Source: a virus
Virus record (IMG/VR): IMGVR_UViG_3300042453_002280
Span: 1 to 37,779 of that record
DNA length: 37,779 nt
Strand: one strand, 5' to 3'
Below are positions 4,106-34,344 of the stretch, piece by piece. How positions within the stretch are numbered: position 1 is the stretch's first letter; each line of letters opens with the position of its first letter. The position numbers and the translations under genes are program-made. The notes beneath the pieces were generated by a model. That model had not been told where the DNA came from, searched no databases, and saw only the letters and a list, made by a program, of their open reading frames with translations.

Positions 4106-4114
4106 TGCTATAAT
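4106..4114 (+). promoter_or_regulatory. Extended -10 promoter of terS, leaderless start
   Basis: TGC followed by TATAAT (4109-4114) is a consensus extended -10 element. The predicted +1 is 4121, the A of the terS ATG, and no Shine-Dalgarno site is present. The spacing to the ATG matches the other late promoters. Confidence 0.75.
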
Positions 4115-4120
4115 TTTTAT

Positions 4121-4570
4121 ATGAAGGTACGAGAACACCCTGAGGTTAAAGGTCTATTATTTGAGGAACGAAGACACAAGACAGCATATAAAAGAGTAAA
4201 AATTAGTGATTATAAAATTGTAGATACCTACATTAAATGTAACTTCCACATTACCAATACGTGCAAGAAACTTAAAATAGCACCAGCTACCTGGTACGAG
4301 TGGCAGGAAACCTATCCTGAACTTAAAAAGATGTTAGATATTGCTAAAGAGTCTATTAAAGATGATATTGAAAAAACACTCATTACAAAAGCTAAAGAAG
4401 GTGATACTCAACTGCTCCTCTACCTTGCCAAGACAATACTTAGAGATAGGGGCTATGGTCAAGATACCCAAAACACTAATCAAAATACCCAAGTAAATAT
4501 TGTATTACCTGAAGATACATCCAAGAAATATGAGTGGTGGGGTTCTTCAAACAAGCCTGATGAAAAGTAA
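4121..4570 (+). CDS. terS: Terminase small subunit (putative)
   Basis: This 149-residue protein is followed, with an 11-nt overlap, by the terminase large subunit. Small subunits recognise the packaging site and hand DNA to the large subunit motor. The sequence has a helix-turn-helix-like segment (ITNTCKKLKIAPATWYEWQE) typical of small terminases that bind DNA at the N-terminus, then a helical core (AKESIKDDIEKTLITKAKEG) suited to ring assembly. The C-terminal tail is polar (QDTQNTNQNTQ). Assignment rests on the domain pattern and position. The ATG directly follows an extended -10 box, suggesting leaderless translation. Confidence 0.75.
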   Translation: MKVREHPEVKGLLFEERRHKTAYKRVKISDYKIVDTYIKCNFHITNTCKKLKIAPATWYEWQETYPELKKMLDIAKESIKDDIEKTLITKAKEGDTQLLLYLAKTILRDRGYGQDTQNTNQNTQVNIVLPEDTSKKYEWWGSSNKPDEK

Positions 4571-5834
4571 AGCTTTACAAGAAATCAAACTACATCCCAA
4601 GCAATCACTTGTTTTTTGGTGTCCTAAGAGGTTTAGAGTGCTTAATGCCGGACGTCGTTTTGGTAAAACCACTTTAGCTATTGCAGAGATGATTCGTACA
4701 GCTTCTCTAATACCTGGGAGCAAGTCAATATACTTTGCTCCGACTATCTCTCAAGCTAGGGACATTGCATGGACTGAGATGAAGAATCAAACCAAGAATC
4801 TGTGGGCTCGGGACCCTAATGAATCTAGACTTGAGATTTACCTTAAATCATCAACAGGTGACCCCTCCCAAATATGGCTTAGGGGAGCTGAGAATATTGA
4901 ATCTGCTCGAGGTAATAAAATCCACTTCCTTGTAGTTGATGAAATCTCATCCATTCGTAATTGGACCTATATTTGGAATGAAGTTTTAAGACCGGCATTA
5001 ACCGATACCTTGGGTGGGGGGCTATTTATCTCAACCCCACATGGTTACGGGCACTTCTTTGATTTGTACAATAAACAAAATACTGATGATGATTATGCTG
5101 CCTTTACATTCACCTCCTACGATAACCCTTATTTGTTACCTACAGAAATTGATAAAGCAAAGCTTGAAATTGGTGAGGACTCTTTTAGACAAGAGTATCT
5201 AGCTGAATTTGTATCGGTATCCGGTCAAGTCTATAAGGAGTGGAAGATGGATACTCAGTTCACAGAAGTAATTTATGACCCTAATCTTGAGGTTAATGTG
5301 TCTTTTGACTTTGGAGTTAATGACCCAACAGCTCTCATTTGGTTTCAAAGAAGTGGTGGTGAGTTTAGAATCATTGACTATTACGAGCAAAAGGACGCCT
5401 CTATTGACCATTTTGTCCATATCATAAGATCAAAGCCATACAGGCAACCTAGTCTTTATACAGGTGATATAGCCGGTCGTAGTAGGTCTATTGGTACTAA
5501 TACCTCACCTATTGAGGAATATGCTAAACACAAGATATTTATTCGTACCCGGTCAGTTAAATCAATCGAAGACCAAATTAGAATTACCCACAAGTACATA
5601 CCATCTCTCTTTGTGTCAAATAAGCTAGATAGGTTTAGAGATATTCTTTTAAATTACAGATATCCTGAGAAAAATGGACTTAATCAACAAAACGAGAACC
5701 CAATCCATGACGAGTATTCACATGGTGCTAGAGCTATGGAGTACTACTTCTTAAACATTGATGGTCTTGACCAAGAGGGATTAAACTATAACAAAACTAT
5801 TACCCAGAACAATTTTAAAGCGTGGGAAATCTAA
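4560..5834 (+). CDS. terL: Terminase large subunit
   Basis: This is the packaging motor ATPase and nuclease, 424 residues from the ATG at 4560. It has a Walker A loop (NAGRRFGKTTLA, about residue 31), a Walker B strand ending in acidic residues (FLVVDEIS), and a C-terminal RNase H-like nuclease domain with acidic strands (VNVSFDFGVNDP; later TGDIAGRS and HDEYSHGARA). The frame is open from 4500, but the upstream part overlaps terS. The ATG at 4560 gives the expected N-terminus before the ATPase and an 11-nt overlap suited to coupling. Confidence 0.93.
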   Translation: MKSKALQEIKLHPKQSLVFWCPKRFRVLNAGRRFGKTTLAIAEMIRTASLIPGSKSIYFAPTISQARDIAWTEMKNQTKNLWARDPNESRLEIYLKSSTGDPSQIWLRGAENIESARGNKIHFLVVDEISSIRNWTYIWNEVLRPALTDTLGGGLFISTPHGYGHFFDLYNKQNTDDDYAAFTFTSYDNPYLLPTEIDKAKLEIGEDSFRQEYLAEFVSVSGQVYKEWKMDTQFTEVIYDPNLEVNVSFDFGVNDPTALIWFQRSGGEFRIIDYYEQKDASIDHFVHIIRSKPYRQPSLYTGDIAGRSRSIGTNTSPIEEYAKHKIFIRTRSVKSIEDQIRITHKYIPSLFVSNKLDRFRDILLNYRYPEKNGLNQQNENPIHDEYSHGARAMEYYFLNIDGLDQEGLNYNKTITQNNFKAWEI

Positions 5835-5836
5835 AC

Positions 5837-5871
5837 TTGAATTAATGTTATTTATTTATTATTTCTAAATT
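5837..5871 (+). promoter_or_regulatory. Late promoter of portal, leaderless start
   Basis: TTGAAT (5837-5842), 17 nt, then TATTTCTA (5860-5867), with the ATG at the predicted +1 (5872). A preceding TTTATTATT word (5855-5863) is shared with other late promoters. No Shine-Dalgarno site. Confidence 0.75.
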
Positions 5872-7920
5872 ATGGCTAAAACACCTAAAAATCCTAAATA
5901 TTCTTTTCAAGACCCTGAACTTTTTGAAGAAGTTTCCTATCATTACACCTATTCACAAGATGATATGGATAAAAGAAAGTTAAGAAAGAATGGTTGGGAT
6001 GACATTATCAAAGCCTATTTTGGTTATTTACCTGCTAACTGGGCGTATCTTTCTAAAGTAACTGACCCTGTTATTAGAACCACCATCTTAGAGAAAACTT
6101 CTCGTATGTTTGCTGGAAAACTAAGAGGTACAGTAGCTCCAAGAGAAGGTAATGACGCTATAAAAGCTAAAATCATTAATGCTTTACTTGATTTTCAATG
6201 GGATAACGCCAAGGTTGGTGGCACAATGCTTGAGAAAGTTATTCTATCTGACATTCAAACAAGAATCTTTGGTGCTTCATTTGTCCTAAACTACTGGAAC
6301 GTAGTTGAAAAAGACGGAAAAATCTATGAAGGACCTGAAATTAAGGTATTAGATAACAGAGATGTCTTTGTTGATTTTCAAGCCAATCATATTAAAAATG
6401 CTAACTGGGTACAGGTAAGAGAGTGGATTACTTGGCAAGACCTAAAAAACAAGAAAAACCCTGACGGTACCCCATTTTACAAAAATTTAGATGTTTTAAA
6501 CCAAAGAATGAGAGGGGATGACAACCTACCTAAACCTGAAAGAAGAGATAATAGGTACACATCTATTACCAAACAAATAAGGTCACTTGAAGATAGAGTT
6601 GGACAAGACCTATACTTCCCAATTCAAGAGATTGTTACCGAATATAGAAGAGATAGAAAGATTATTTTTGCTCCAAGACATGGAGTTATCCTATTTGACG
6701 GTCCAAATCCACTAGATTCACAGGAAATTCCTATCTCAATGCTTAGATATTACCCAATTGGAGATGATGTATACGGAGAATCAGAAGTTGAGTCCGTATT
6801 GCCCCTTTATAGGGCTATAAATGCCACACTATGTGCCTTTTTAGACCAAATGAACTTGGCTATGCGACCTCCAATCAAGGTCGCTAACAACGCAGCTGGT
6901 GTCAGACTAGATACTTTAGTCTACGGACCTAATGCTGTGTGGCTTACTGGCGATAATCCAAACAATGTACAAGAACATCAATCAGGTACAGCAGCTATAA
7001 CAGGCTTTAATACCTCCTATACAGCCCTTAAATCAGCGTTTCAAGTAGCAATGGGGGATAACTCCATGGGTATCTCTTCCATGAACCCACTTGGTAAAGG
7101 AGATAAGACTGCGACCGAAATTAGAGCTACTACAAGACAACAGTTAGCTCGTGATAACTACAACCAAATCTACTTAGAAGAATTTTTAAAAGATGTTATG
7201 GAGTTTTGGATTAAGATGAACCAACAGTTCCTTTTCTCAGACCCTACAAAAGAACAAATGATTATTAGAATAGTCGGAAAGGATATTTTAAATGAACTTA
7301 AAAACATGGAACTTGCACAAACTCAAATCCCTGATGAAGTCATCACTCAAACTGCTGATCTCATTGACCAGACACCTGGTGGTTTGGCTCCAGAAGAAAT
7401 TGAAGTAATCTCAAATGTATCTCGCGTACCTACAAATCCTGTAACAGATGAACAAGGAAATATAGTACCTAAACTTGATATGAGTGAAGATGGTTCTATT
7501 GCAAGATTATTTGTCGAAAAAGATGATTTAGTTGGTTCTTTTGACTACATTCCTGACGTAAAGTCTATGCAAATAGGTGTATCTGAAGAAGCAATTAACG
7601 GAAGAAACCAAGCATTATACATCCTTTTATCACCTGGTGTTCAACAACAGCTCCAAATGGAAGGTGCTACAATTAATGTTAAAGACCTTCTTATTAGTGT
7701 TCTAGAAGACAATGGAGTTAAAAATGCAAGTAAATTATTTCAATCAGGACAAGTAAATGGACAAAGCCCTACTGGATTACCTGGACAATTACCAGGACAA
7801 GGACTCCCAGCAAATCTCCCACAAGGACTCGGAAACTTTGGAGGAAGCCAAATGCCTTCTGGACCTTCAATCGACCAAGGGATGGCAAATATTCCTCAAA
7901 CACCTGGTATTAGTGCCTAA
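5872..7920 (+). CDS. Portal protein
   Basis: The dodecameric portal forms the DNA gate at one head vertex and docks the terminase. This 682-residue protein follows terL directly and has the portal length and layout of podovirus-type phages. It has an N-terminal wing region (PANWAYLSKVTDPVIRTT), the central segment DDVYGESEVESVLPLYRAIN leading to the clip/stem, and a long C-terminal part ending in a Pro/Gly/Gln-rich tail (residues about 630-682). The call rests on pattern and context. Its first codons and 23 nt of upstream DNA are identical to those of 32005-32868. Confidence 0.88.
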   Translation: MAKTPKNPKYSFQDPELFEEVSYHYTYSQDDMDKRKLRKNGWDDIIKAYFGYLPANWAYLSKVTDPVIRTTILEKTSRMFAGKLRGTVAPREGNDAIKAKIINALLDFQWDNAKVGGTMLEKVILSDIQTRIFGASFVLNYWNVVEKDGKIYEGPEIKVLDNRDVFVDFQANHIKNANWVQVREWITWQDLKNKKNPDGTPFYKNLDVLNQRMRGDDNLPKPERRDNRYTSITKQIRSLEDRVGQDLYFPIQEIVTEYRRDRKIIFAPRHGVILFDGPNPLDSQEIPISMLRYYPIGDDVYGESEVESVLPLYRAINATLCAFLDQMNLAMRPPIKVANNAAGVRLDTLVYGPNAVWLTGDNPNNVQEHQSGTAAITGFNTSYTALKSAFQVAMGDNSMGISSMNPLGKGDKTATEIRATTRQQLARDNYNQIYLEEFLKDVMEFWIKMNQQFLFSDPTKEQMIIRIVGKDILNELKNMELAQTQIPDEVITQTADLIDQTPGGLAPEEIEVISNVSRVPTNPVTDEQGNIVPKLDMSEDGSIARLFVEKDDLVGSFDYIPDVKSMQIGVSEEAINGRNQALYILLSPGVQQQLQMEGATINVKDLLISVLEDNGVKNASKLFQSGQVNGQSPTGLPGQLPGQGLPANLPQGLGNFGGSQMPSGPSIDQGMANIPQTPGISA

Positions 7921-8089: not shown

Positions 8090-8333
8090 AGAACCTTTAG
8101 AGTTCTACGAACATACAACTAAAATTGATCCTAACTATTGCGACCATAGATTTAAAAGACTTTCCATAACTCGTGTTGTTTGTAAAAGATGTGGCTTAGG
8201 TTTCTTTGATAACCCCTTTAACCCTTTTCCTGTAACTGAAATGAATAGAGCGGCTCGAAAACAAAAAGAACAATTTGATAAACAAAAAGAAGAGTTTTAC
8301 GAGAAATATAAAAATGTTGAAAATAAAGAATAA
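8067..8333 (+). CDS. Small zinc-ribbon-like phage protein
   Basis: This 88-residue protein has NYCDHRFKRL followed by VVCKRCGLGFFDNPFNPFP. The Cys/His pair and the CxxC knuckle could bind one zinc ion. I have seen this C-H, CxxC, GFFDNP layout in uncharacterised small proteins that sit beside phage head genes. The C-terminal third is a charged helix (RKQKEQFDKQKEEFYEKYK). It ends 18 nt before the next gene. A structural or assembly role is inferred from position only. Confidence 0.7.
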   Translation: MKENQNTKEPLEFYEHTTKIDPNYCDHRFKRLSITRVVCKRCGLGFFDNPFNPFPVTEMNRAARKQKEQFDKQKEEFYEKYKNVENKE

Positions 8334-8351
8334 CTTTATTATTAATTGACT
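8317..8351 (+). promoter_or_regulatory. Late promoter of 8352 gene, leaderless start
   Basis: TTGAAA (8317-8322), 17 nt, TATTAATT (8340-8347), with TTTATTATT at 8335-8343. The predicted +1 is the A of the ATG at 8352. This decides that start over an in-frame TTG at 8346. Confidence 0.75.
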
Positions 8352-9518
8352 ATGGACAAAAATCTAGCAAAAAAAATAGGAAGTGCAGGAGCTGGAATTG
8401 CTGCTGGTAAAGCTGCATCTCAAGCTGTAGCTAAATCTACACCTAAATTAAATGTTACTGCACCTAAACCTTCAAGTTCTTCTAGCAAGAAGCAAGGTAT
8501 CAACCCTGAAAGTGCTTTTTTAAGACAACAAAACGATTTAATTAATAGACAATTTGCAGAAGCTCAAAGTCTTTATGACACACAAGCTCAACAATTAATA
8601 CAATTACAACCATTTTATGAGCAATCAGTTATAAGAGGTTATGAATCTCAAAGACCAATACTTCAACAACAGTTTCAAGCTGGTATGGAAAATATTGGAC
8701 TTCAAAAAGAACAAACAAGAGGTCAAAGAGAATCAGCACTAGCACAAGCTAGAAGACAATACGAAGAAGGATTACAAAAATCACAAACTTTATTTGGTGG
8801 TGTTGGTGGTTCATCTGCAGGGCAAGCATCTGCTGAAATATTAGGTGCTGAGCAACTAAGACAAATGGGTTCTGCACAAACTCAATCTGCACAAAATTTA
8901 ATGGCACTAGGAACTGCTGAAAGAGATTTACAAGGACAATTAACTACACAACTACAACAATTAGAAGTTAAAAAACAACAAGATTTAATGAAATTAAGAG
9001 ATTCTTTTAGACAAGAATTAAATCAAATCAATGCTCAAAAAGGTGCTTTATCTCAAAACAAAGCTAATGCACAGCTTCAAGCACTACAAGATTACAACAC
9101 AAGACGAAGACAATTAGAAGATTTAGTAACTGAGCAAAGAATGAACCTAGAATCCTTTGCACAACAAGCTGCAATTCAATTTAGATATAACCAAATGGGT
9201 AATGCACAAGCAAACCAAATAGCACAATTACCTAACTTTAATAATATGGAATCTGAAGAAATTGCTTCTAACATTTTTAATTTAAGAAACACAGACGCAG
9301 GTCTAAGAGCTTTATCAGCAGCAGGTTGGAACCCAACACCTTTACCTGGAGGTCAACAGATTTGGACTAATGAAAGAACAGGTTACACTTTAGACCTAGC
9401 TGGTAGAAGACTAGAAGATAACGCTATAAATCTATGGAACGATTTACAAAAAGCAGACCAAACAGTTGCAAATTTATACAATTCAAAAAGACTTAGAGAG
9501 CTAAGTGGCTTAAAATAA
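8352..9518 (+). CDS. Gln-rich coiled-coil virion protein (putative ejection protein)
   Basis: This 388-residue protein has a small-residue-rich N-terminus (IGSAGAGIAAGKAASQAVAK) and a long central region very rich in Gln, Ala, Leu and Arg (residues about 50-290) with strong coiled-coil character. A more globular C-terminus contains NPTPLPGGQQIWTNERTGY. Such Ala/Gln-rich helical proteins between portal and a giant internal protein are typical of podovirus ejected (core) proteins. That role is inferred from composition and order. The ATG at 8352 is preferred because it sits at the promoter's predicted +1. Confidence 0.7.
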   Translation: MDKNLAKKIGSAGAGIAAGKAASQAVAKSTPKLNVTAPKPSSSSSKKQGINPESAFLRQQNDLINRQFAEAQSLYDTQAQQLIQLQPFYEQSVIRGYESQRPILQQQFQAGMENIGLQKEQTRGQRESALAQARRQYEEGLQKSQTLFGGVGGSSAGQASAEILGAEQLRQMGSAQTQSAQNLMALGTAERDLQGQLTTQLQQLEVKKQQDLMKLRDSFRQELNQINAQKGALSQNKANAQLQALQDYNTRRRQLEDLVTEQRMNLESFAQQAAIQFRYNQMGNAQANQIAQLPNFNNMESEEIASNIFNLRNTDAGLRALSAAGWNPTPLPGGQQIWTNERTGYTLDLAGRRLEDNAINLWNDLQKADQTVANLYNSKRLRELSGLK

Positions 9519-9553
9519 TTGATTAAACAACCCTAATTTATTATTAGTTAGGT
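9519..9553 (+). promoter_or_regulatory. Late promoter of giant virion protein, leaderless start
   Basis: TTGATT (9519-9524), 17 nt, TATTAGTT (9542-9549), with TTTATTATT at 9537-9545. The ATG at 9554 is at the predicted +1. No Shine-Dalgarno site. Confidence 0.75.
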
Positions 9554-12500
9554 ATGGATATCCAAAACACACTAGAACAAGCAAAACAAAGAGGACTATC
9601 TGCAATAGATTCTATTAGAAAAGCTGTAACAACCCCTCAACCAACTACAATGGATAGGATATCGCAAGGTGTTCAGGTACTTAAAGCTTATGACCAAGCA
9701 AAAAAAGTATTAACACCTAAACCTACTAATGTTTTACAAAAAGCTTATGAAACATATCAAACAATTCAACCTATTGCTGGTGTAGTACAAGGTATTACTA
9801 AAGGTTTTGGTGTACCTAAAACAAGTTTACCTGCACCACTTCAAGCACCACTTACATCTAACGCTGTAAAATTTACATCTGAATATTTAGAAAGAGTTGC
9901 AAAACCAATAGCTGATACTATTCAAGTAGCAAAAGAATTAAACCCAGCAACTTTAGGCATAACTTCTGCAAATAGGGGAGCGGCGTTAGCTACTAAACAA
10001 ATAGAGTTAGGAAGAACTTTAACTCCTGAAGAATTTATATCTATTGCCAAACCACAGATTAGTTTAGATCAAATATTTGCGCCATTTGAAGTATTAAACC
10101 AAGCTATTGTTCAACCTGCATATGACACTTTAAAAGTTGATTTATACAATAAAAGAAAACAATTAGGTTATTCTGTAGCAGATATAACTGAAACTCCAGG
10201 ACAATTAAGAAGAGCTGCAATAACAGGTAAGCCTACTCCAACAGGGAGAAGTGAGATTACTCTAAATGAAGTATTTAATGTTGATGAAAAAACAAATCCT
10301 ACTTTATACCAAGTAAATAGATTTATTGACTTTACACCTGAACTTATTGCACCAGGACCAGGTGAATTAGCAGCTTTTGGAGCAAGTATAAAAGGAGTTA
10401 AGGGTGCTTCTAGAGTTGATGATGCTATTGATGCGTTTAAAGCTGAAGGAAAACCATTAACTAAAGCTGCTGAGGATTTTATAAAGGATACATTTAAATC
10501 AGCAGATGACGTTAAAAACTATCTTAAAGAACAAATTGGTGGAATTAAACAAATAGACCAAGCAGAAAGAAATGTAATTAGTGTAACTCAAAAGTTTGCA
10601 GATGAGATTGTTAGAAAAGAAAAAGCTGCAAGAGAACTTGCTAGAGGAGAAGTACCTGGCATCAAAGGTAAATTATCAAAAATATGGGAAGACTACAAAG
10701 TTAATTTTGAAACTCAGCAGGAAGCAATTTACAAAGCTATAAAACTAGCTGAAAAACAATACGGAAAATTAAATCCATCTCAAAATCCTATTTATTATTT
10801 AGATATTTTGTTTAGAAGTGGAAGACAAACAGAAGAGTATATAACTAAAAATGGTTTGGTAGATATTTTAACTCAAGCAAAACAAAAAGGTTCTACAGAT
10901 GAGTTTGGTTCCTTACTTTTAAACAGAAGACTTTTAACTGTTGCTGATGAAACTGGTATTGATTTACCAAATAGAGCTGAAAAAGAAAGATTCGTAGCAT
11001 TTGCTTCACAAAAATATGCAGATTTACTTGCAAGATACGACAACTATATGCAAGGTTTACTTAAATTTATTTACGATAACAATTTAATTGACGAAGCTGA
11101 ATACAATAGACTTAAAGAATTAAAAGATTACGCACCTTTTCAAAAGGTATTTGACGAAGCAGATACACCTGAGTTACCAAAACTATCCACCACAACATTT
11201 GGTAGTGTTAATGACCCAAGACTTGTACAAAAATTAAAAGATATAGCAAATACAATTCACGAGAACCCACTTGAATCAACCCTTTACTATACCTACAGGG
11301 CTGTTGATAAAGCAAATCAAAACAAGTTTGCATCTTTATTTGGAGATTTAATCAAACAAGGCAAAATTGATGGGGCTGAGATGATTAGAGTTGCTGAGGA
11401 TGTTATTAGAAGAACTGCACTTATTAATGATGTTGAGGAGTTAAAGAAAGTTAGAGATGCAGTTAGAAGATTTATCAAAAAAAAGAATATCCAAAAAGGA
11501 GTTCTTGAAAAAGAATTTAATTCACTAGCTAGAAAAGGAATTAATTTATCCCTTAAAAAAACTACTGTTGAAACAATGGATCCTGTAGTTAAAGACAGAT
11601 TAATTCAAAGAGTTAAATCTTTAACTAAAGACAGAAATAAATTACAAAACGAAATAGAAAAACTAAACATTAAAGGTTTAGATTTACAGGCAGTAAGAGA
11701 TTTCGAAGGTTTCACAAAGGCTGTACCTGCTCCTGAACTACAAAAGATTTTAGATAAAAATCTAGTTAAGAAAGAAGAGTTTTTAACTAAACTTCTTGCT
11801 AAATCAGATAATTTAATCAAAGAAAAATTTAATAAATATATTTCTAAAGAGTATGGTTTAAATCTAAAAGAATTAACAGATGAAGCAAGACTAAATTTCT
11901 TCAGGAACTCAACCCCTGATGAACTAGAAAGATTTGTTTTTGAAGTTCTTGATATAACTCCAAAAAGAGCTGCATCATTTTTTAACAGGTTAAGAACAAG
12001 TAAGGGCAAGATTGCAGAAACTGTTAAAGAAATTGAGGACCTAAGAAATCAATCTTTTGTAAATAACATAATTGATACTTTATACAGAGATGAACAACAA
12101 CTTTTAAAACAATTAGCAGGTAAGCAATCTGAATTGAAACCAATTTTAAGAGAAATTACAGATATTAAATCAAATATCTACTACAACGAATTATTTAACT
12201 CTCTTGTTAAAAAATCTCCTGATGAATTAGAGGTTATTCAAAAACAATTAGGTAAATCAGAAAAAAATATTAAAAAGATTGTCGATATTATTGTTGAGGG
12301 TCAAAGGAAGTTAGACGAAACCTCAGGAGCCATTGCAAGAAGAGAACAAGAAATTAAAACCTTAATGGACAAAGGTAAAGATGGTAAAGCAGTTATATCT
12401 TGGTACAACAACGGAGTTAGAGAACTAGCAACTGTTTCAAAAGAACTAGGAGAAGCATTTAAATTATCTAACGAAACAGGAACCATGGAAGCAGTTTTAA

Positions 12501-14473
12501 AAATTGCAGGTACAGTAACTAACCTTTGGAAAGCATCTGTAGTTGGTTTAAACCCTGTATCTCAAATCAGACAGTTTGTTAAAGACCAAGGAGCTATATT
12601 ATTTTTTACATCTCCTAGAGCAAAACTATCTGTACTTAACCCTCTTAACTTTATGGAAGCAGCTTATGGTGTTACAGCAAGTAGCACAAGGTTGGGTGAG
12701 TTTTTATCTAAAGCTCCAATTATTGGTAAAAGAATGGAACAAGCTCATCTTAAAGCAAGAAGAGAGTATAAAAACTTTCTTAAATTAGGAGGAGGTCAGA
12801 CATCTTATGATGCAGTTTCAGGAAGAGATACAGTTAAAAGTTTTGTAGAAGCAGGTGGTAAACCTAAAGCATTCTCAAGAGAAAACATAGAAAAATATAT
12901 AGCTAAGTCAGAAGAAGCTACAAGGTTTCAACTATATTTAATTCAAAAAAAACAGTATTTAAGAAAGGGTTATAGTGACCTAGATGCCTCTTTAAAAGCA
13001 GTTTATGATTCAAATAACCTTCTACCTAACTATTTCCAAAAGGGTAAATTTGGAAGGGTTTTAGAAGTAGCATCTCCATTTGCTAATGCTAAATTAAAAT
13101 CAGCAAGAGCATTAAGAACTTATATTGCTGAAAAACCAGCAGAGGCAACATTTAGCATTTTAACAACTGTTGCAGCTCCTGTTGCTGCTATAACTTACTG
13201 GAACTTATCTGATGAGAATAGAAGAAACGCTTATAGTGATATACCTGAATGGGAAAAAGAATTAGGTTTAATAATCCTTCCCCCATTCCCTGTAAAAAAT
13301 GAAAACGGTAAATATGAATACATAAGAATCCCACAAGAAGAAACTGTTGCAGGATTAGCACAAGGTTATAGAAGAGCAACTGAAATTGCTATGAGCGAAG
13401 ACCCTGATAAAGTTCAACAAGTATGGGGTGCATTACTTGATACTACACACGATCTAGTAATGGCAACTACAGGACAGGAAATAGGTCTTGCATCTACACC
13501 TGAAAAAGCTGTTGAAAACCTAAGACAGGGTAGTGCTGCAGCAATTAACCCTTATCTTAGAAGTCCTTTAGAACTCTTAACAGGATATGATTTATTTAAA
13601 GGTCAAACTATTGAAGACTTAGGCGACCTAAAAGAATACTCCTACAGAAGATTTAGCAAGAGTTCAACTCCACTTGCTGTTGATTTGTCTAAATTCTTAT
13701 TTGATAACGGAATTAAAAACGTATCTCCAAAAGAGATAGACTTCTTCTTAGCTGCTAATTTCCCTGGACTACCTCAATACGCCCTAGGTGGTTTAAATGA
13801 TTTACTAAATAAATCTAAAGCAAATCCTTCTGATTTTGAACCTAAGACAATGCTTAATGACATTGTTAAGATTTTTAGAAGAGAAGGTGGTGGTGAGCAA
13901 AACAGGAAACTATTTTTAGAAAAAGAACAACAAACATTTGAAAAGACTAAAGAAAATGCAGGTATCAAAGAATTAATTAAAGATATTTATACCGATACAA
14001 ACGCTGAAGATGCTAGAACAAAACTAAGAGAAATAACCCCAAATCTAACCTCACAACAATTTAGAGCATTAGAAAATTCAGTACAACTAGAGTTAGCAGA
14101 AGAAAGCTTAACTCCTGATCAAAAAGTTATTTTAAATTTTTCAAAAGATGATTTAGAAACATTAAAAGAAACTAACCCTGAGAGAACTGAGGATATTGAT
14201 AAGGTTTTGGAAGTTAAAGATTTAATTTCTAAACAAAAGAATATTTCAGGTTCTTCTATCGGACTTAAATCTACAGGTGGTGGTCCATCACTATCTATTA
14301 AAGCAAGTAAAATTAAACTACCTAAAATATCTAAACCTAAAAAGGTAAGAATGCCTAAGGTTTCTGCACCTAAGAGATTAACTGTTAAAAAACCTAAAGC
14401 AACTAAAGCTAAAAGAATTAAGGGAGTAAAAGTTCCTCGTGTAAAACCACTTAAAAGAATCAAAAGATTTTAG
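9554..14473 (+). CDS. Giant internal virion / large polyvalent-type protein
   Basis: This 1639-residue protein is the largest in the window. Residues about 1-340 are mixed, about 400-960 are long charged helices, and about 980-1400 contain a region that resembles the LPD38-type domain of large polyvalent proteins (LWKASVVGLNPVSQIRQFVK; later GRVLEVASPFANAKLKSARA). A hydrophobic segment (ATFSILTTVAAPVAAITYW) follows. The C-terminal 60 or so residues are a Lys/Arg/Pro tail. Podoviruses eject proteins of this size into the cell with the DNA, which is the likely role. The domain name is from memory and unverified. Confidence 0.75.
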   Translation: MDIQNTLEQAKQRGLSAIDSIRKAVTTPQPTTMDRISQGVQVLKAYDQAKKVLTPKPTNVLQKAYETYQTIQPIAGVVQGITKGFGVPKTSLPAPLQAPLTSNAVKFTSEYLERVAKPIADTIQVAKELNPATLGITSANRGAALATKQIELGRTLTPEEFISIAKPQISLDQIFAPFEVLNQAIVQPAYDTLKVDLYNKRKQLGYSVADITETPGQLRRAAITGKPTPTGRSEITLNEVFNVDEKTNPTLYQVNRFIDFTPELIAPGPGELAAFGASIKGVKGASRVDDAIDAFKAEGKPLTKAAEDFIKDTFKSADDVKNYLKEQIGGIKQIDQAERNVISVTQKFADEIVRKEKAARELARGEVPGIKGKLSKIWEDYKVNFETQQEAIYKAIKLAEKQYGKLNPSQNPIYYLDILFRSGRQTEEYITKNGLVDILTQAKQKGSTDEFGSLLLNRRLLTVADETGIDLPNRAEKERFVAFASQKYADLLARYDNYMQGLLKFIYDNNLIDEAEYNRLKELKDYAPFQKVFDEADTPELPKLSTTTFGSVNDPRLVQKLKDIANTIHENPLESTLYYTYRAVDKANQNKFASLFGDLIKQGKIDGAEMIRVAEDVIRRTALINDVEELKKVRDAVRRFIKKKNIQKGVLEKEFNSLARKGINLSLKKTTVETMDPVVKDRLIQRVKSLTKDRNKLQNEIEKLNIKGLDLQAVRDFEGFTKAVPAPELQKILDKNLVKKEEFLTKLLAKSDNLIKEKFNKYISKEYGLNLKELTDEARLNFFRNSTPDELERFVFEVLDITPKRAASFFNRLRTSKGKIAETVKEIEDLRNQSFVNNIIDTLYRDEQQLLKQLAGKQSELKPILREITDIKSNIYYNELFNSLVKKSPDELEVIQKQLGKSEKNIKKIVDIIVEGQRKLDETSGAIARREQEIKTLMDKGKDGKAVISWYNNGVRELATVSKELGEAFKLSNETGTMEAVLKIAGTVTNLWKASVVGLNPVSQIRQFVKDQGAILFFTSPRAKLSVLNPLNFMEAAYGVTASSTRLGEFLSKAPIIGKRMEQAHLKARREYKNFLKLGGGQTSYDAVSGRDTVKSFVEAGGKPKAFSRENIEKYIAKSEEATRFQLYLIQKKQYLRKGYSDLDASLKAVYDSNNLLPNYFQKGKFGRVLEVASPFANAKLKSARALRTYIAEKPAEATFSILTTVAAPVAAITYWNLSDENRRNAYSDIPEWEKELGLIILPPFPVKNENGKYEYIRIPQEETVAGLAQGYRRATEIAMSEDPDKVQQVWGALLDTTHDLVMATTGQEIGLASTPEKAVENLRQGSAAAINPYLRSPLELLTGYDLFKGQTIEDLGDLKEYSYRRFSKSSTPLAVDLSKFLFDNGIKNVSPKEIDFFLAANFPGLPQYALGGLNDLLNKSKANPSDFEPKTMLNDIVKIFRREGGGEQNRKLFLEKEQQTFEKTKENAGIKELIKDIYTDTNAEDARTKLREITPNLTSQQFRALENSVQLELAEESLTPDQKVILNFSKDDLETLKETNPERTEDIDKVLEVKDLISKQKNISGSSIGLKSTGGGPSLSIKASKIKLPKISKPKKVRMPKVSAPKRLTVKKPKATKAKRIKGVKVPRVKPLKRIKRF

Positions 14474-14485
14474 TATTTATATATT
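14451..14485 (+). promoter_or_regulatory. Late promoter of small basic gene cluster, leaderless start
   Basis: TTAAAA (14451-14456), 17 nt, TATTTATA (14474-14481), then 4 nt and the ATG at 14486. The same TAGTATTTATA word precedes the gene at 24658. Confidence 0.6.
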
Positions 14486-14671
14486 ATGAAACTACAAGAA
14501 TTTACAAACTTATACTACAAATTAAAAGAACTTAAAGAAAAGGTCAAAAAACCTTTGGAGAAAAAAATGGAAATGGCTGAAGAAAAAGACGACATGAAAG
14601 AAGATAAAATGGAAAAGGAAATGTACAAAAAAGTAAAAAAACAAGTAATGAAAAAAGTGAAAGGAAAATAA
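14486..14671 (+). CDS. Small Lys/Glu-rich charged protein
   Basis: This 61-residue protein starts MKLQEFTNLYYKLKELKEK and then is almost wholly Lys, Glu, Met and Asp, with repeated MEK/EKM words. It is predicted to be one long charged helix or disordered. It overlaps the next gene by 1 nt. It lies first in a chain of three tiny basic proteins after the giant internal protein, so it may be a minor virion or DNA-condensing component. That is inference; no family is recognised. Confidence 0.6.
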   Translation: MKLQEFTNLYYKLKELKEKVKKPLEKKMEMAEEKDDMKEDKMEKEMYKKVKKQVMKKVKGK

Positions 14672-15810: not shown

Positions 15811-16015
15811 TTTACCTACAAATTTAGGTGCAGGTATGACAGCTAGGGGGGTTGCTGCTTATAGAAGAGCTAACCCTGGTTCTAAATTACAAACTGCAGT
15901 TACAGAAAAAAATCCGACAGGAGAAAGAGCAAAAAGACGAAAAGCTTTCTGCTCGAGATCAAAATCATGGTCTGGTGAAAGAGGTATAGCAGCCCGTAAA
16001 AGATGGAGATGCTAA
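15770..16015 (+). CDS. Small basic phage protein (GMTARGVAAYRRANPGSKL family)
   Basis: This 81-residue protein contains GMTARGVAAYRRANPGSKLQ and later AKRRKAFCSRSKSW, ending in RRW-type basic residues. The pattern matches a widespread uncharacterised phage family I recall as DUF6321. It is found among virion genes of many tailed phages, and function is not established. It starts inside the right repeat and overlaps the endonuclease stop by 4 nt. Its stop overlaps the stop of the antisense XRE gene by 3 nt. It is the likely original occupant of the locus before the endonuclease arrived. Confidence 0.75.
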   Translation: MNIRKTTKGKDRNFLPTNLGAGMTARGVAAYRRANPGSKLQTAVTEKNPTGERAKRRKAFCSRSKSWSGERGIAARKRWRC

Positions 16016-16227: not shown

Positions 16228-16233
16228 AATTTT

Positions 16234-16242
16234 ATTATACCA
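16234..16242 (-). promoter_or_regulatory. Extended -10 promoter of XRE gene 1, leaderless start
   Basis: On the minus strand TGG then TATAAT (16239-16234), with 6 nt to the ATG at 16227, so +1 falls on the start codon. No Shine-Dalgarno site and no clear -35 box. Confidence 0.7.
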
Positions 16243-16254
16243 CCGGGTAAAGCG

Positions 16255-22402: not shown

Positions 22403-23284
22403 ATGAGAGGTAAGAAACTAGCGTTTATTTATACAGACTATAAACCTGCTGATTACTATTTTGGGTTACATAATGGTCTATTTGAATCCTTTAACCATTT
22501 AAATAAAAACTTTGAGATGATGGTGTTTGCCTACACCGACCAAATGAACACGTTAAGAAGACCTAAGTTTGATATTAATTTTAGAAACACAGATAAGGCT
22601 ATTGAGTTTGGAGTTAACGAGTATTTTGATCCAACACATATCTATTTTGTTGGCAGTACTAACTATGACTATGCTAAATTTAGAACTAAGAAAGTACCTA
22701 AATATTTAATCCATAAGGGTAATAACCATAACTCTGAGTTATATGATTTCTTTGACCATGTGTTTGTTGAAACACAAGAAGAAGTTAAAAACTATAAATC
22801 TGCTAGTGTTGCAGTACCTGTTAATACTAAATCATATTTCCCACAACTTACAGAAAAATATTTTACATTTTGTTTTCCACAGGATTTGTCAGTTGGAAAA
22901 CTAGATTTCTTTTCAAAAGTTAGAGTATATGGCTCTATTTCACAAACTTTAAATTCAACTGTCAAACTTCCTCTTGATGCCACAAGTACTCTAACTACAG
23001 TAATAAATCAATCTAAAGCTGTGTCTTTAATTGAAGATACTAACGAGTCATTTGAAATCGCATTATCAGCACTAGCTTGTAACGTACCTGTACTTGCTAC
23101 GCTTGATTCTAAGGCATCTAAAATACCTGCTGTAGTCAAATCTATGGCAACTACTCCTGACTTCACCATAGCCATGCTAGAGGCTTTAAACTTAGAAAAT
23201 AAACATAACTTTAGAGATGAGTATATAATTCCAAACTATTCTCCAAAGACATTTGCAAAGGTTATAATGGACACAATTTTATGA
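22403..23284 (+). CDS. GT-B-like glycosyltransferase (divergent)
   Basis: This 293-residue protein begins MRGKKLAFIYTDYKPADYYF. It has HIYFVGSTNYDYAKFRTKK in its first half, and near the end the donor-site-like SFEIALSALACNVPVLAT, as in GT4-type enzymes. The N-lobe is short for the family. It follows the previous gene with no gap and overlaps the next by 4 nt, so it belongs to the same coupled operon. Probably a sugar transferase, but it could be a degenerate partner subunit. Substrate unknown. Confidence 0.65.
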   Translation: MRGKKLAFIYTDYKPADYYFGLHNGLFESFNHLNKNFEMMVFAYTDQMNTLRRPKFDINFRNTDKAIEFGVNEYFDPTHIYFVGSTNYDYAKFRTKKVPKYLIHKGNNHNSELYDFFDHVFVETQEEVKNYKSASVAVPVNTKSYFPQLTEKYFTFCFPQDLSVGKLDFFSKVRVYGSISQTLNSTVKLPLDATSTLTTVINQSKAVSLIEDTNESFEIALSALACNVPVLATLDSKASKIPAVVKSMATTPDFTIAMLEALNLENKHNFRDEYIIPNYSPKTFAKVIMDTIL

Positions 23285-23712
23285 AAAAAGTACTAACAAT
23301 AGGAACATTTGATTTGCTTCATGTAGGACATATAGATTTATTTAAACAATGTAGGTACCTTGCAGGTGAGGGTGGAACTGTTTTTGTTGCCATTAACGCA
23401 GATGAATTTGTAGAAAGATATAAAGGTAAAAGACCTGTTATCCATCAAGGAGATAGGATTGTTATGATTGATGCTTGTCGTTATGTAGACTTTGCATATT
23501 TTCACGAATCAGGAGAAGATTGCAGAGAAACTATTGAAAAAGTTAAACCTGATATTTTAGTTGTAGGTTCTGATTGGTTATCTAAAAACTATTTAAATCA
23601 AATTGGGATTATTCCTGAATACCTTGAAGATAATGAAATTACTTTAGTTTATACACCTAGAAAACACGAGTCTAGTACCAAGATAAAACAAAGGTTAGTA
23701 AATGAAAGTTAG
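23281..23712 (+). CDS. Cytidylyltransferase-family nucleotidyltransferase (TagD/RfaE-like)
   Basis: This 143-residue protein has the two family signatures: GTFDLLHVGHIDLFKQC (HxGH nucleotide-binding motif) near the N-terminus and ESSTKIKQRL (the ISSTxI-type motif) near the C-terminus. It should transfer a nucleotide from CTP or ATP to a phosphorylated alcohol or sugar, such as glycerol-3-phosphate or a heptose phosphate, making an activated donor. Within a run of glycosyltransferases it probably supplies one of their donors. Length matches TagD. It overlaps both neighbours. Confidence 0.88.
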   Translation: MKKVLTIGTFDLLHVGHIDLFKQCRYLAGEGGTVFVAINADEFVERYKGKRPVIHQGDRIVMIDACRYVDFAYFHESGEDCRETIEKVKPDILVVGSDWLSKNYLNQIGIIPEYLEDNEITLVYTPRKHESSTKIKQRLVNES

Positions 23713-24253
23713 TGTTGTTATCTCATCTTTATGGACTTCGGAAGGTAAAGCTAAGATGCTTTATGATTGTATGGAAAATCTTGTTGGTGCAGATGAAATA
23801 TTAGCTTTAGTTAATCCAATAAAGGCTCATATAGGGTTTGCTGATGCTTGGAATAGAATAGCAACTTTAGCTACTGGAGATTATATAGTGTTTGTAGGTG
23901 ACGCAAATTATCAAACTGAGGGTAACTTAAAAGAAATGTGTATCCCTGATACTGTTACTTACCCTAAATTAAATGGAAAATTTGATGCACTTCCATGGAT
24001 TTTTTGTGTTCCTAAAAATATTTACGAACAAATAGGTTTATACGATATGAGATTTAACGAAGGTTCCCATTGGGAAGATACAGACTTTTGGAGAAGAATT
24101 AGAGCAAACAATATAAAAATAGCTCCTATTGAATTTGTTAATTTTAATAAACCTGTTAATGGAACAAGCATAAGGCACATTGAAAACTCACAAGGGAGAA
24201 TTGAAAGAAATAAACAACTATACTTTGAAAAATGGGGAGATAACGATTACTAA
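23702..24253 (+). CDS. Small GT2-family glycosyltransferase
   Basis: This 183-residue protein begins MKVSVVISSLWTSEGKAKML. It carries DAWNRIATLATGDYIVFVGD, where the acidic residue after the strand occupies the place of the GT-A DxD motif, and WEDTDFWRRIRANNIKI, like the catalytic-base ED region of GT2 enzymes. It is shorter than typical family members. It overlaps the nucleotidyltransferase by 11 nt and the next gene by 1 nt. It closes the island of five glycan-type genes. Acceptor unknown: virion protein, DNA or host surface. Confidence 0.75.
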   Translation: MKVSVVISSLWTSEGKAKMLYDCMENLVGADEILALVNPIKAHIGFADAWNRIATLATGDYIVFVGDANYQTEGNLKEMCIPDTVTYPKLNGKFDALPWIFCVPKNIYEQIGLYDMRFNEGSHWEDTDFWRRIRANNIKIAPIEFVNFNKPVNGTSIRHIENSQGRIERNKQLYFEKWGDNDY

Positions 24254-24645
24254 TGGCTGGGGGTAAAACTGCAAGACGTAAAGGACATAACTTTGAAAGA
24301 GAAGTGGCAATCATGCTTAGACCCTATTACCCTGATGCTAAAAGGCAACTTGAGTATCAAGAAGGTCTTGGATACGATATTCAAGGTACTGGCGACTTAT
24401 CAATTCAATGCAAGGTCGGGAAATCATTTAAAATTGAAAAAGCGTTAAAAGAAGCAGAACAACCAAATAAAATACCTGTAGCAATAACTAAAAAAGATAG
24501 AGAAGATATTGTAGTTTCAATGTATTGGAAAGACTTTGAGTTTTTCTTAATAAGTTACCTTGATAATAAAGATAAAATCTATGTAAGACCTCCTGTTAAA
24601 AAGAAACCTAAAGCACCTGCAGTTGAAAAACCATCAATAAATTAG
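24253..24645 (+). CDS. PD-(D/E)XK nuclease, Holliday-junction-resolvase-like
   Basis: This 130-residue protein begins MAGGKTARRKGHNFEREVAI and continues through YDIQGTGDLSIQCKVG. The E of FERE, the D of GYD or GTGD, and QxK (IQCK) fit the resolvase-like PD-(D/E)XK core found in small phage endonucleases. It should trim branched DNA during replication or packaging. It has a Lys/Pro-rich tail. Its start overlaps the stop of the last glycosyltransferase, and it ends before the promoter at 24623-24657. Fold assignment by motif only. Confidence 0.75.
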   Translation: MAGGKTARRKGHNFEREVAIMLRPYYPDAKRQLEYQEGLGYDIQGTGDLSIQCKVGKSFKIEKALKEAEQPNKIPVAITKKDREDIVVSMYWKDFEFFLISYLDNKDKIYVRPPVKKKPKAPAVEKPSIN

Positions 24646-24657
24646 TATTTATAAACT
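24623..24657 (+). promoter_or_regulatory. Late promoter of tail-fibre unit, leaderless start
   Basis: TTGAAA (24623-24628), 17 nt, TATTTATA (24646-24653), 4 nt, then ATG 24658 at +1. The TAGTATTTATA word matches the one before 14486. Confidence 0.75.
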
Positions 24658-25026
24658 ATGCTCGGAGCAGAAGACGTCAAGAAAGTACAATTAGAAACCC
24701 CTGTTATAGCACCAATTATTGAGGAAGTTAAACCTCAAGATGTGGTTATACCTGGTGAAATGGCAAAGCTAAAAGTAGCTGAGATGTTTGGTATTAACTC
24801 TTATGACGTTGGTAAATACGAACACGATATCAATAGGATCCTAGAGTACGTTAATACTTTTAATCCACAAAATATGGATGACATTATCTATTACATAAAA
24901 TCTTTAGGTGCTAGACTTGGCACCAACAACCTAGAAAAACAAATTAAAACTATGTCTAGGTATTTATTTTTAAACAATCAAAAACAACAAATTGAAAGAG
25001 ATTTAGAAAGGATGACCAATGGCTAA
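24658..25026 (+). CDS. Hypothetical protein heading the fibre operon
   Basis: This 122-residue protein has a Pro/Val/Glu-rich N-terminus (VQLETPVIAPIIEEVKPQ) and then a helical part (KLKVAEMFGINSYDVGKYEH; later NNLEKQIKTMSRYLFLNN). It overlaps the next gene by 8 nt. It could be a fibre assembly or capsid-vertex protein. No family recognised, and the role is a guess from position. Confidence 0.65.
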   Translation: MLGAEDVKKVQLETPVIAPIIEEVKPQDVVIPGEMAKLKVAEMFGINSYDVGKYEHDINRILEYVNTFNPQNMDDIIYYIKSLGARLGTNNLEKQIKTMSRYLFLNNQKQQIERDLERMTNG

Positions 25027-29109: not shown

Positions 29110-29319
29110 ATGATTAATTTAAATGGAACAAATTGGAATATAACCTCACTTGGAGTAAATAATAACTTCTACTATGTATCAGTTTCAGATGAAGTTAATA
29201 CTATAGACTATGTTATTGATGTGTCTGTAATTGATAAAACAAAGCTTATACTACCTCAAATTTATAACTACATACTAACTCAACCTGATTTTGCAGGTGG
29301 AACTTTAATTAGCAGTTGA
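29110..29319 (+). CDS. Small hypothetical protein after fibre
   Basis: This 69-residue protein reads MINLNGTNWNITSLGVNN and continues with YVSVSDEVNTIDYVIDVSVI. It is beta-rich. The open frame extends far upstream to 28933, but that part is out of phase within the fibre gene. The ATG at 29110, 2 nt after the fibre stop, is the natural start. It resembles small adaptor-like or chaperone-like fibre accessory proteins, but I recognise no family. It ends just upstream of the -35 box of the next late promoter. Confidence 0.6.
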   Translation: MINLNGTNWNITSLGVNNNFYYVSVSDEVNTIDYVIDVSVIDKTKLILPQIYNYILTQPDFAGGTLISS

Positions 29320-29350
29320 AATAACCTACACAATTTATTATTCATAAGTT
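29316..29350 (+). promoter_or_regulatory. Late promoter of tail adaptor unit, leaderless start
   Basis: TTGAAA (29316-29321), 17 nt, TATTCATA (29339-29346), with TTTATTATT at 29334-29342. ATG 29351 is at the predicted +1. The -35 box overlaps the stop of the preceding gene. Confidence 0.75.
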
Positions 29351-30013
29351 ATGACCGTATTCTATGACGTAGCTACAATACTTAAATCTGTTGGAGGATT
29401 AACCGAGCAAGAAGCTGTGCTTCCTACAGGTACCGACCTATCTGTTAGACTTCAATATGTTAATGATGCTTTAGGAGAGTGGGCTGATACCTATACTTGG
29501 AAAGATCTAAGAACTACTTTAGCTATCAACACTTCAACTGCATCTGTAAATGTAGTAAATCTCCCAACTAACTTTAGAGAGCCTTTATCTACTCTATACG
29601 TCTTTTCAGATACAGGAAATTTGCCTACAGAATACCCTCTCATTGATGCTAGAGAAAGATTTTCAAAATTCGATACTGATAAATACTGCTACCTTATGAA
29701 CACTTTTAGGAATAAACAGTTGATTGTAAATCCTGCACTTGAAAGTGGTGCATCATGTCAAATAGACTATATGTCTTTCCCTTCTTCTGTTGCAACTACA
29801 ACTGATTTTGTTCCAATTTCAGCATCACAATATCTAGTTAAGCGAGTATCTGCTATGGTATTTCAAGCTAGAGGTGATTCAAGATATCCACTTCTTCAAG
29901 CAGATGCTCAAAGAATGTTATCCAACGCTATTGAGGAACAAAATGTACCATTTGGAAAAGTTAATAGAATACCAATCGATACAAATAGTTTCACAATAGG
30001 AGTTGATGGATAA
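29351..30013 (+). CDS. Tail adaptor / tubular protein A-like
   Basis: This 220-residue protein begins MTVFYDVATILKSVGGLTEQ and has LQYVNDALGEWADTYTWKDL, as in the helical core of T7 gp11 / P22 gp4-type adaptors that join portal to tail. The second half holds beta text (REPLSTLYVFSDTGNLP; CQIDYMSFPSS) and a C-terminal helix (ADAQRMLSNAIEEQN). Length and position before the nozzle protein fit a podovirus tail adaptor. It overlaps the next gene by 1 nt. Confidence 0.78.
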   Translation: MTVFYDVATILKSVGGLTEQEAVLPTGTDLSVRLQYVNDALGEWADTYTWKDLRTTLAINTSTASVNVVNLPTNFREPLSTLYVFSDTGNLPTEYPLIDARERFSKFDTDKYCYLMNTFRNKQLIVNPALESGASCQIDYMSFPSSVATTTDFVPISASQYLVKRVSAMVFQARGDSRYPLLQADAQRMLSNAIEEQNVPFGKVNRIPIDTNSFTIGVDG

Positions 30014-31969: not shown

Positions 31970-32004
31970 TTGCTATTTAAATATTTATTTATTATTTCTA
32001 AATT
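31970..32004 (+). promoter_or_regulatory. Late promoter of 32005 gene, leaderless start
   Basis: TTGCTA (31970-31975), 17 nt, TATTTCTA (31993-32000), with TTTATTATT at 31988-31996. ATG 32005 is at +1. The last 23 nt and the first 8 coding nt are identical to those of the portal gene. Confidence 0.75.
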
Positions 32005-32868
32005 ATGGCTAATTTATATAATGTACCACTTAAAAACGCAGTTCAGAAGGTTTTAGCAAATACTTTGCTTACCTCAGAAACAGGAACAATAACTTTTACT
32101 ACTTCTGTTACATCAGATTTACAAGCATCAGCTAGTATTCCTGGTATCTTAGTTGTAGATAGAGTTGATGTTAATGGTACTTTAACCCCATCCTTAACCG
32201 AATATATTTCTTTTACAGGTGTATCAGGATCAACTGTTACAGGTCTTGTAAGGGGTTTAGGTGGAACTTCAGCACAAGACCACGCAATCGGGGCGATCGT
32301 TGAGTTTGTACCTGACGTTGTTTGGGCTGATTCTTTAAATGACGTATTTACAACTCAACACAATGCTGATGGTACTCATAAAACTTTATCTAATTTATCT
32401 TTAGTATCAGTCACTATTAACAACTCTACTTTAAATAATATTTCTTTTGCTGGTAACTCTTTAGTATCAGTTAATATCGGTTCTTCAGTATTTGCTAGCG
32501 GTACTATTACCAACACCTCTTTAGTTTCAACTACTTTTGTAAATAGAACTTATATCCCTGTTGAAAGTAAATTAATCTCAACAGCTACATCTACATTTGA
32601 TTGGTCATTTGCAAATATACACTCTTTAACTTTATCTACAGCTACTACAACACTTGCTTTTTCAAATCCTGTTGCTGGTCAAGCTTTAATCACAAGACTT
32701 GGACAAGATGGAACAGGTGGTAGAAGAGTAGTATTCCCATCAACTATTTACTGGGCAGGAGGCACAGCCCCAACCCTAACCTCAACAGCATCAAAAAACG
32801 ATGTTTTCGGGTTCTTATGCACAGCATCAGGATTCTATGATGGTTATGCAGTTGGTTACAACTTGTAA
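32005..32868 (+). CDS. Virion fibre/structural protein 2
   Basis: This 287-residue protein contains IPGILVVDRVDVNGTLTPSL, ISFTGVSGSTVTGLVRGLGG and ADSLNDVFTTQHNADGTHK. That order recurs in phage tail-fibre attachment proteins. The middle is a pentapeptide-like beta-helical section (NLSLVSVTINNSTLNNISFA), and the C-terminus is a small beta domain (GQALITRLGQDGTGGRRVVF) seen in many fibre tips. It overlaps the next gene by 1 nt. Likely part of the adsorption apparatus. Confidence 0.75.
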   Translation: MANLYNVPLKNAVQKVLANTLLTSETGTITFTTSVTSDLQASASIPGILVVDRVDVNGTLTPSLTEYISFTGVSGSTVTGLVRGLGGTSAQDHAIGAIVEFVPDVVWADSLNDVFTTQHNADGTHKTLSNLSLVSVTINNSTLNNISFAGNSLVSVNIGSSVFASGTITNTSLVSTTFVNRTYIPVESKLISTATSTFDWSFANIHSLTLSTATTTLAFSNPVAGQALITRLGQDGTGGRRVVFPSTIYWAGGTAPTLTSTASKNDVFGFLCTASGFYDGYAVGYNL

Positions 32869-33713: not shown

Positions 33714-33742
33714 TTGACTAATTTCACCTATTGATAGATAAT
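33714..33742 (+). promoter_or_regulatory. Sigma70-type promoter of moron-like gene
   Basis: TTGACT (33714-33719), 17 nt, GATAAT (33737-33742). Predicted +1 near 33749. The transcript would begin with ACCC-GAAA-GGGT (33749-33760), a 4-bp hairpin closed by a GNRA tetraloop. Confidence 0.85.
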
Positions 33743-33790
33743 ATAGTTACCCGAAAGGGTATATAAACATAACCCAACAAGGAGGGTGCT

Positions 33791-34018
33791 ATGGGTTGGT
33801 TCAATTGGACTGTTCTCGCTGAGGACATTGCCGACAAAGACGAGGGTAAGCCCTCAACCGGTCATTACGAGCAACACCACGCTCGAACTGAAACCGGTGC
33901 AACAAACAACCAGGCACGAAGTGCTTGGCATCAGGCTCGTGTGGACGCTTCTGCTTCTGGGGATCTCAACGAACGTGTTGAGAACAAGAACAAGCAAAAC
34001 AAGCCTTGGTGGAAGTAA
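33791..34018 (+). CDS. Moron-like hydrophilic protein of foreign composition
   Basis: This 75-residue protein begins MGWFNWTVLAEDIADKDEG and ends with KPWWK. It is rich in Asn, Ala, Glu, His and Gln, has no hydrophobic core and is probably disordered. It has a perfect ribosome site (AAGGAGG). Its DNA is near half G+C by eye, against about a third around it, and uses CGT/CGC/CGA arginine codons where its neighbours use AGA. It sits between its own promoter and terminator, the hallmark of a moron. Function unknown. An overlapping frame at 33786 is a shadow. Confidence 0.8.
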   Translation: MGWFNWTVLAEDIADKDEGKPSTGHYEQHHARTETGATNNQARSAWHQARVDASASGDLNERVENKNKQNKPWWK

Positions 34019-34030
34019 GTAGTAAAGTCT

Positions 34031-34064
34031 TGGGAGCAGACTATAAACGCTCCCACTTTCATTT
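34031..34064 (+). terminator. Terminator of moron-like gene
   Basis: A 7-bp stem (TGGGAGC 34031-34037 with GCTCCCA 34049-34055, 11-nt loop) is followed by CTTTCATTT. It ends 9 nt before the next ATG. Confidence 0.75.
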
Positions 34065-34325
34065 ATGAAGCAAAATTTATTTAACTCAAATTTTAATCAC
34101 GACAATTTTATAGAATATATGTGCCTTGTATTCGAAGATAAGCATTTTAAATCTGATGAACTTAGACCTAGTGTTTTAACAGGTATAGAAAAAGGTCTAA
34201 ATAAATACAACGAAAAAAGAAGAAAAGTTAATCTCTTTGTTTATGTAACATATTTTGTTAAAAAAGAAGTTACCGACTACAAAAAATCTAAACTTCTATT
34301 CAATCTCTCTTTCAAAAAAAGATAA
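34065..34325 (+). CDS. Small protein resembling sigma factor region 2 (tentative)
   Basis: This 86-residue protein contains GIEKGLNKYNEKRRKVNLF, then YVTYFVKKEVTDYKKSK. The order GL-KY, a basic turn, F-Y-T aromatics, then a KKE-DY-KK helix resembles sigma70 region 2.1-2.2 (core binding and start of -10 recognition). It is far too short for a full sigma factor and lacks regions 3 and 4. If real it could be a gp55-like late specificity factor matching the TATTTATA boxes, but the similarity is by eye. It starts just after the moron terminator without a clear ribosome site. Confidence 0.6.
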   Translation: MKQNLFNSNFNHDNFIEYMCLVFEDKHFKSDELRPSVLTGIEKGLNKYNEKRRKVNLFVYVTYFVKKEVTDYKKSKLLFNLSFKKR

Positions 34326-34344
34326 ATTATATTATTTATATCTC
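34310..34344 (+). promoter_or_regulatory. Late promoter of endolysin gene, leaderless start
   Basis: TATTTATA (34333-34340) lies 4 nt before ATG 34345, the same spacing as at 14486 and 24658. The -35 position (34310-34315, TTTCAA) is poor. This fixes the start over an upstream frame opening at 34255. Confidence 0.65.

Follow-up and report, generated by a model that had tools for sequence, protein, structure and literature searches.

Late genes whose promoter-like upstream text adjoins the ATG, and at which no Shine-Dalgarno (SD) site is recognised, raise the question of where their transcripts begin and how they are translated. Such genes occur in a window (the whole stretch of DNA analysed, 37,779 bases, 33.6% GC) that is the entire IMG/VR record of an uncultured phage. 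The window comprises the late half of the genome and part of the early region, with podovirus-type head genes. A preliminary description had read the late genes as a leaderless regulon with +1 on the start codon, a reading that is supported by motif enrichment in relatives and by the arrangement at the scaffold gene.

The plus strand carries genes for the terminase subunits (4121 and 4503-5834), the portal (5872), a 1639-aa protein with an LPD38 polyvalent-protein domain (9554-14473, the first gene of its own putative leaderless unit), a scaffold protein (17442, so assigned because it precedes the capsid gene), the major capsid protein (18271), glycosyltransferases, a RusA-like resolvase (24253), tail fibres (26397 and 32005) and an endolysin (34345). 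A glycosyltransferase-like gene cluster (20043-24253) lies within the late scaffold/capsid unit and is largely kept across the clade. Minus-strand genes at both window ends are of early type, a label based on strand, gene content and promoter type; an HTH_17 protein (37170-37538) found no match in a PDB search. Two HTH_3 repressor-like genes (16012-16512, minus strand) are situated within the late region and are kept in the relative G003, and a tRNA-Thr(TGT) gene (17266-17341) ends just 5' of the scaffold promoter, with a tRNA-Thr also present in G001 and G013.

The clade consists of uncultured phages that are AT-rich for the most part. The window's capsid protein is homologous to that of the LUZ24/PaP3 and HTVC106P phages (PHROG 1328, E 3e-50; 27-30% identity by tblastn), and no phage isolate in the collection searched is close in its portal or tail protein. 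Searches for the host, by a portal-alignment scan of a genome contig collection and by the exact tRNA-Thr pattern, returned no relative and no match, respectively.

A two-part motif at a fixed distance from the start codon

Seven genes had been described as preceded by a TTGAAA-like hexamer, exactly 17 nt and a TATT box, and this is borne out at each of them: the hexamer occupies -35 to -30, and a -10 element of the form TATT[TAC][ACG]T starts at -12, 17 nt after it. The portal promoter (5837-5874, plus strand, as are all that follow) has TTGAAT at 5837-5842, TATTTCT at 5860-5866 and a predicted +1 on the ATG at 5872, and is kept by orthologues at 55-91% protein identity. The promoter at 8317-8354 (TTGAAA, TATTAAT, ATG 8352) is the same in G003, G005, G007, G008 and G009, and that of the LPD38 gene at 9519-9556 (TTGATT, TATTAGT, ATG 9554) in G003, G004, G005 and G006. 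The promoter at 14451-14488 (TTAAAA, TATTTAT, ATG 14486) occurs otherwise only in the near-identical G001. At 24623-24660 (TTGAAA, TATTTAT, ATG 24658; same in G003, G005 and G006) the -35 sits inside the upstream RusA-like gene, and the -10 and ATG spacing are also kept in G012 and G013. The remaining two lie at 29316-29353 (TTGAAA, TATTCAT, ATG 29351; same in G003, G005, G007, G008 and G009, with a TAG-type counterpart in G010) and, before a tail fibre gene, at 31970-32007 (TTGCTA, TATTTCT, ATG 32005; same in G003 and G005-G009). As had been claimed, TTTATTATT is found at -17 to -9 of the genes at 5872, 8352, 9554, 29351 and 32005, and an SD check of the named starts revealed no such site.

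Two further genes had been attached to this family. Before the endolysin gene (34310-34347, ATG 34345), the -10 element TATTTAT fits and the -35 is weak (TTTCAA), just as first noted; this promoter is kept in G008 and G009. The endolysin gene of G003 is SD-led, so late units can switch. Weak -35 boxes are also found at 14486 and in the G013/G014 group. For the terminase small subunit, the reported TATAAT-N6-ATG text is present (4109-4123), but it falls outside the late motif class: the -10 is of host type, and the arrangement is not kept in the relatives examined, L007-L009 having AGGAG before the orthologous start. The gene at 4121 is possibly expressed as a leaderless transcript from a host-type promoter.

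In the window, TTTATTATT-N8-ATG occurs five times on the forward strand, and neither on the reverse strand nor as the reversed pattern. TTG-N20-TATTnnT-N5-ATG occurs six times on the late strand and not on the other, compared with a mean of 0.032 (maximum 1) over 500 Markov shuffles, and a laxer form with TT-N21 gives 8 matches versus 0.18 in the shuffles.

Recurrence of the motif at gene starts in related phages had been proposed as a check, and relatives were collected through portal and capsid scans (portal identities between 100% and about 41%). Ten TATT-clade records, mostly incomplete and with predicted start codons, were pooled, and the motif is enriched in one fixed geometry, with 33 matches forward and 0 reverse, counts that are not all independent because several of the records are related. 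A spacer of 20 between TTG and TATT accounts for the 33, with 6 more one base shorter and 1 at the other neighbouring length; likewise, an ATG distance of 5 gives 33 and the neighbouring distances 0 and 3. GTG, TTG and CTG in place of ATG give none in the pooled records, and minor peaks at ATG distances of 18 and 21 coincide with the ATG within the scaffold leader. In L010, L011 and L013 the portal ATG is displaced with respect to the protein alignment, and the motif is displaced likewise.

More distant relatives have a different -10. In G010 and G019 (portal 46-47% identical), TTG-N17/18 is followed by a TAG-type -10 and then ATG; the outgroup variants include TAGTWRTT and CTAGGTT, both the -35 and the ATG spacing being retained. 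G016 (portal 43%) has TTGATAACCT..CTAGGTT..ATG, and TTGCAAACCCC precedes several starts of G020, where the -10 text varies. In these predicted promoters the start-codon geometry outlives the -10 sequence, being retained while the -10 diverges in the outgroups. The late-gene starts of HTVC106P and ctf1B273, which have only the capsid and terminase families in common with the clade, were found to have mostly SD-like sites and not the motif, so the leaderless promoter trait belongs to this clade. In a motif scan of viral contigs, the matches listed were mostly single per record, as by chance, and known clade members recurred among them.

Recognition of late promoters by RNA polymerase

Candidate opposite-strand promoters take the form TTGACA-N16-18-TATAAT, followed by roughly 30-50 nt in which AGAAAGG precedes the ATG. 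For comparison, 53 late starts were chosen solely by TATT at -12, T at -6 and a start codon that opens a reading frame. T is found in 53/53 at position -15, for which there was no selection, and TTG at -35 is strongly conserved; T stands at -7 in 4/53, and at -6 in all by selection. The late promoters have a TTGACA-like -35 and a spacer of about 17, and lack a TATAAT-type -10 with T at -7. Because they differ from the early promoters in the -10, a changed polymerase specificity is likely, and the altered -10 points to the host core polymerase with a different sigma or accessory factor.

SigA-like sigma genes were found only in G010 (8739-9557, flipped) and G019 (3305-4117), outgroups with a TAG-type late -10. 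Their products share 46% identity along most of the sequence and are best explained as the late sigmas of these phages. A difference in the -10-recognising residues of the G010 sigma (WWIRAYIMRAL vs WWIRQAITRAI) was considered as the cause of the TAG-type -10 and rejected: G019 has the same kind of -10, yet its sigma retains Q and T. In the window-clade records (the near-complete G003 and the large G006, G013 and G014 included), Pfam Sigma70_r2 and Sigma70_r4 gave nothing above cut-off, a result to be read with the window's incomplete early region in mind and with the fact that divergent sigmas could escape. One weak Sigma70_r4 match at 16108-16182 was rejected as a late sigma, since it belongs to an HTH_3 protein. 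When a common activator was sought, no early gene proved to be kept across the whole clade. A divergent protein or a sigma of the host might serve as the late factor of this clade.

The late promoters might also be ordinary ones, read by the unmodified host sigma70 holoenzyme with no phage-specific recognition, which would be compatible with leaderless transcripts. The TTGaaa -35 and the 17-nt spacer are indeed sigma70-like, and the window's clade has no detected sigma gene; against this, the late -10 has T at -15, -9 and -6 and seldom at -7 in genomes whose early promoters are TATAAT, and the outgroups with a different -10 carry their own sigma. We consider such ordinary recognition possible but rather unlikely.

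The start site and the scaffold leader

All 53 selected starts are ATG, and position -1 is a pyrimidine in every one (T 44, C 9). At SD-led ATGs in the same genomes, -1 is A in 104 of 162. The scaffold/capsid operon offers a further view of this position. A scaffold promoter with the same boxes and no ATG at +1 had been placed at 17351-17385, and it is present as described: TTGACA (17351-17356), N17, TATTTCT (17374-17380) and a predicted +1 at A 17386. Scaffold promoters with the same boxes, a spacer of 16-18 and no ATG at +1 were found in nearly every relative; at 14 such sites, T is at -1 in 14/14 and A at +1 in 13/14. Because T and A are kept here without an ATG, the T-A step appears to be part of the promoter, onto which the ATG of other late genes is fitted.

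These observations bear on whether transcription from otherwise genuine promoters might begin 1-6 nt upstream of the ATG, for instance in the A-rich -5 to -3 interval, giving very short leaders and nearly leaderless mRNAs. A is frequent at -5 to -3 of the leaderless starts, and start sites often vary by 1-2 nt. The uniform pyrimidine at -1, the T/A retained at -1/+1 of the scaffold promoters and the single ATG distance all speak against it, however, and such short leaders seem improbable. From these positions, we infer that the start site would be exactly at the A of the ATG.

That the late motif is a promoter and not a translation signal was argued in the preliminary description from the scaffold gene, which has the same boxes without an ATG, and almost all relatives found bear it out. 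An AT-rich binding site for the ribosome or S1 would account for text that adjoins the ATG everywhere but at the scaffold gene, and for the missing SD sites. The median anti-SD duplex energy is +1.7 kcal/mol at leaderless starts, as against -4.2 at other late genes (p about 1e-20) and -6.3 on the opposite strand (4e-18), SD sites being common at many other late genes and at opposite-strand (early) genes. A translation signal would explain neither the -35 box at fixed spacing nor the boxes before relatives' scaffold genes, and is very improbable. Chance in DNA of 33.6% GC is effectively refuted by the empty opposite strand, 6 matches versus 0.03 by shuffling and the fixed spacing over ten records.

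The scaffold mRNA would have a leader of 56 nt (17386-17441), in which a candidate H-type pseudoknot is followed by the SD site AGAAAGG (17426-17432). Stem 1 pairs GGG (17396-17398) with CCC (17408-17410) and covaries; stem 2 pairs ATGCTC (17401-17406) with GAGCAT (17420-17425) and is nearly invariant. Fourteen leaders (the window, G003, G005, G006, G008-G010, G013, G016, G018-G021 and L316) were aligned from stretches trimmed around the invariant ATGCTC, which lies 12-17 nt past the predicted +1 within a short stem, with GAGCA downstream. In stem 1, column pair 7-22 is UA, GC, AU or CG and is paired in 14/14 leaders, and column pair 9-20 is GC or CG; the covariation score is reached by no shuffle. 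The leader is probably an H-type pseudoknot, for which conservation and complementarity are the evidence in stem 2. Rfam reported the tRNA only and no match for the scaffold leader, and the matches listed in a pseudoknot pattern scan of viral contigs were mostly unrelated sequences, plus clade members. In phage T4 the gene 32 leader pseudoknot is a site of autoregulation (PMC3014915), a precedent in kind only.

A probable leaderless late regulon and its known counterparts

It is highly likely that the late genes form a leaderless regulon that starts on the ATG and is read by a host polymerase of changed specificity. In the scheme proposed, the early minus-strand genes would be expressed from ordinary sigma70-type promoters, with leaders and an AGAAAGG SD. 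In the late phase, the host core polymerase with another sigma or accessory factor would read some ten short units, the majority having a two-part promoter of their own, made up of TTGaaa at -35, 17 nt and an extended -10 (TTWKTATTnnTAA), with +1 at the A of ATG. Transcription would thus be initiated at the start codon itself, and translation of the late mRNAs would begin at a 5'-terminal AUG, with SD sites or overlapping starts serving the downstream genes of each unit. The scaffold/capsid operon, with its 56-nt leader, candidate pseudoknot and SD, would be the sole leadered exception. Both the identity of the late factor and any role of the pseudoknot would be suggestions of the same kind. 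A bolder version, in which the promoter-ATG coupling is a deliberate switch, a changed translation apparatus prefers leaderless late mRNAs over those of the host and only scaffold/capsid is exempt, its pseudoknot leader tuning scaffold and capsid output, is speculative and appears unlikely.

The arrangement is of interest in that transcription and translation signals would be joined to the exact base, and would stay joined as the promoter sequence changes, in phages that otherwise use SD sites. It fits promoters into gaps of 12-37 nt, and late start codons and units of these uncultured phages should be readable directly from DNA. The question of why late units would be leaderless becomes testable, since the phage has its own leadered control in the capsid operon.

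T4-type late promoters, which depend on gp55, consist of TATAAATA at -10 with no -35. The window likewise has an AT-rich -10 before late genes, but with TATTnnT in place of that element, a conserved TTG at -35 and different head genes. With LUZ24/PaP3 and HTVC106P-type phages it has a homologous major capsid protein in common; HTVC106P and ctf1B273 do not have its mode of late regulation. Phages 7-11 and phiEco32 are similar in having a recurring late promoter before many structural genes (bipartite in 7-11), host core RNA polymerase and opposite-strand early genes. A phage-encoded sigma reads their late promoters (consensus GTAAtg-16-aCTA or tAATGTAtA; PMC8948821), and the paper on them nowhere uses the word "leaderless"; no sigma gene was recognised in the window's clade, although the outgroups G010 and G019 have one. 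In Thermus phage P23-45, a host RNA polymerase of altered behaviour reads the middle and late genes from a distinct promoter class (PMC7403470, PMC10770324), as is proposed here. The extended -10 promoters of P23-45 depend little on a -35, which the window's clade conserves, and P23-45 encodes its own RNA polymerases, none being recognised among the genes examined here.

The preliminary remark that leaderless late units are unusual needs qualifying, since phiYS40 and bacterial leaderless genes are already documented. In Thermus phage phiYS40, most middle and late mRNAs are leaderless (PMC3594737), a likeness in kind; its host belongs to a phylum rich in leaderless genes, whereas the window phage has strong SD sites at early and internal genes. 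In some bacterial phyla, leaderless genes are put at about 20-40% of the total, and TANNNT about 12 nt 5' of the start codon is a published genomic signature of such genes (PMC3160421). The late genes described here have the same distance, TA at -12/-11 and a predicted 5'-terminal AUG, but their -10 is far more constrained and is joined by a -35, in an otherwise SD-using genome. Within the open-access literature, what is new is a clade in which a two-part late promoter is fused to the ATG in such a genome, with a geometry that persists through turnover of the -10 and with one leadered exception.
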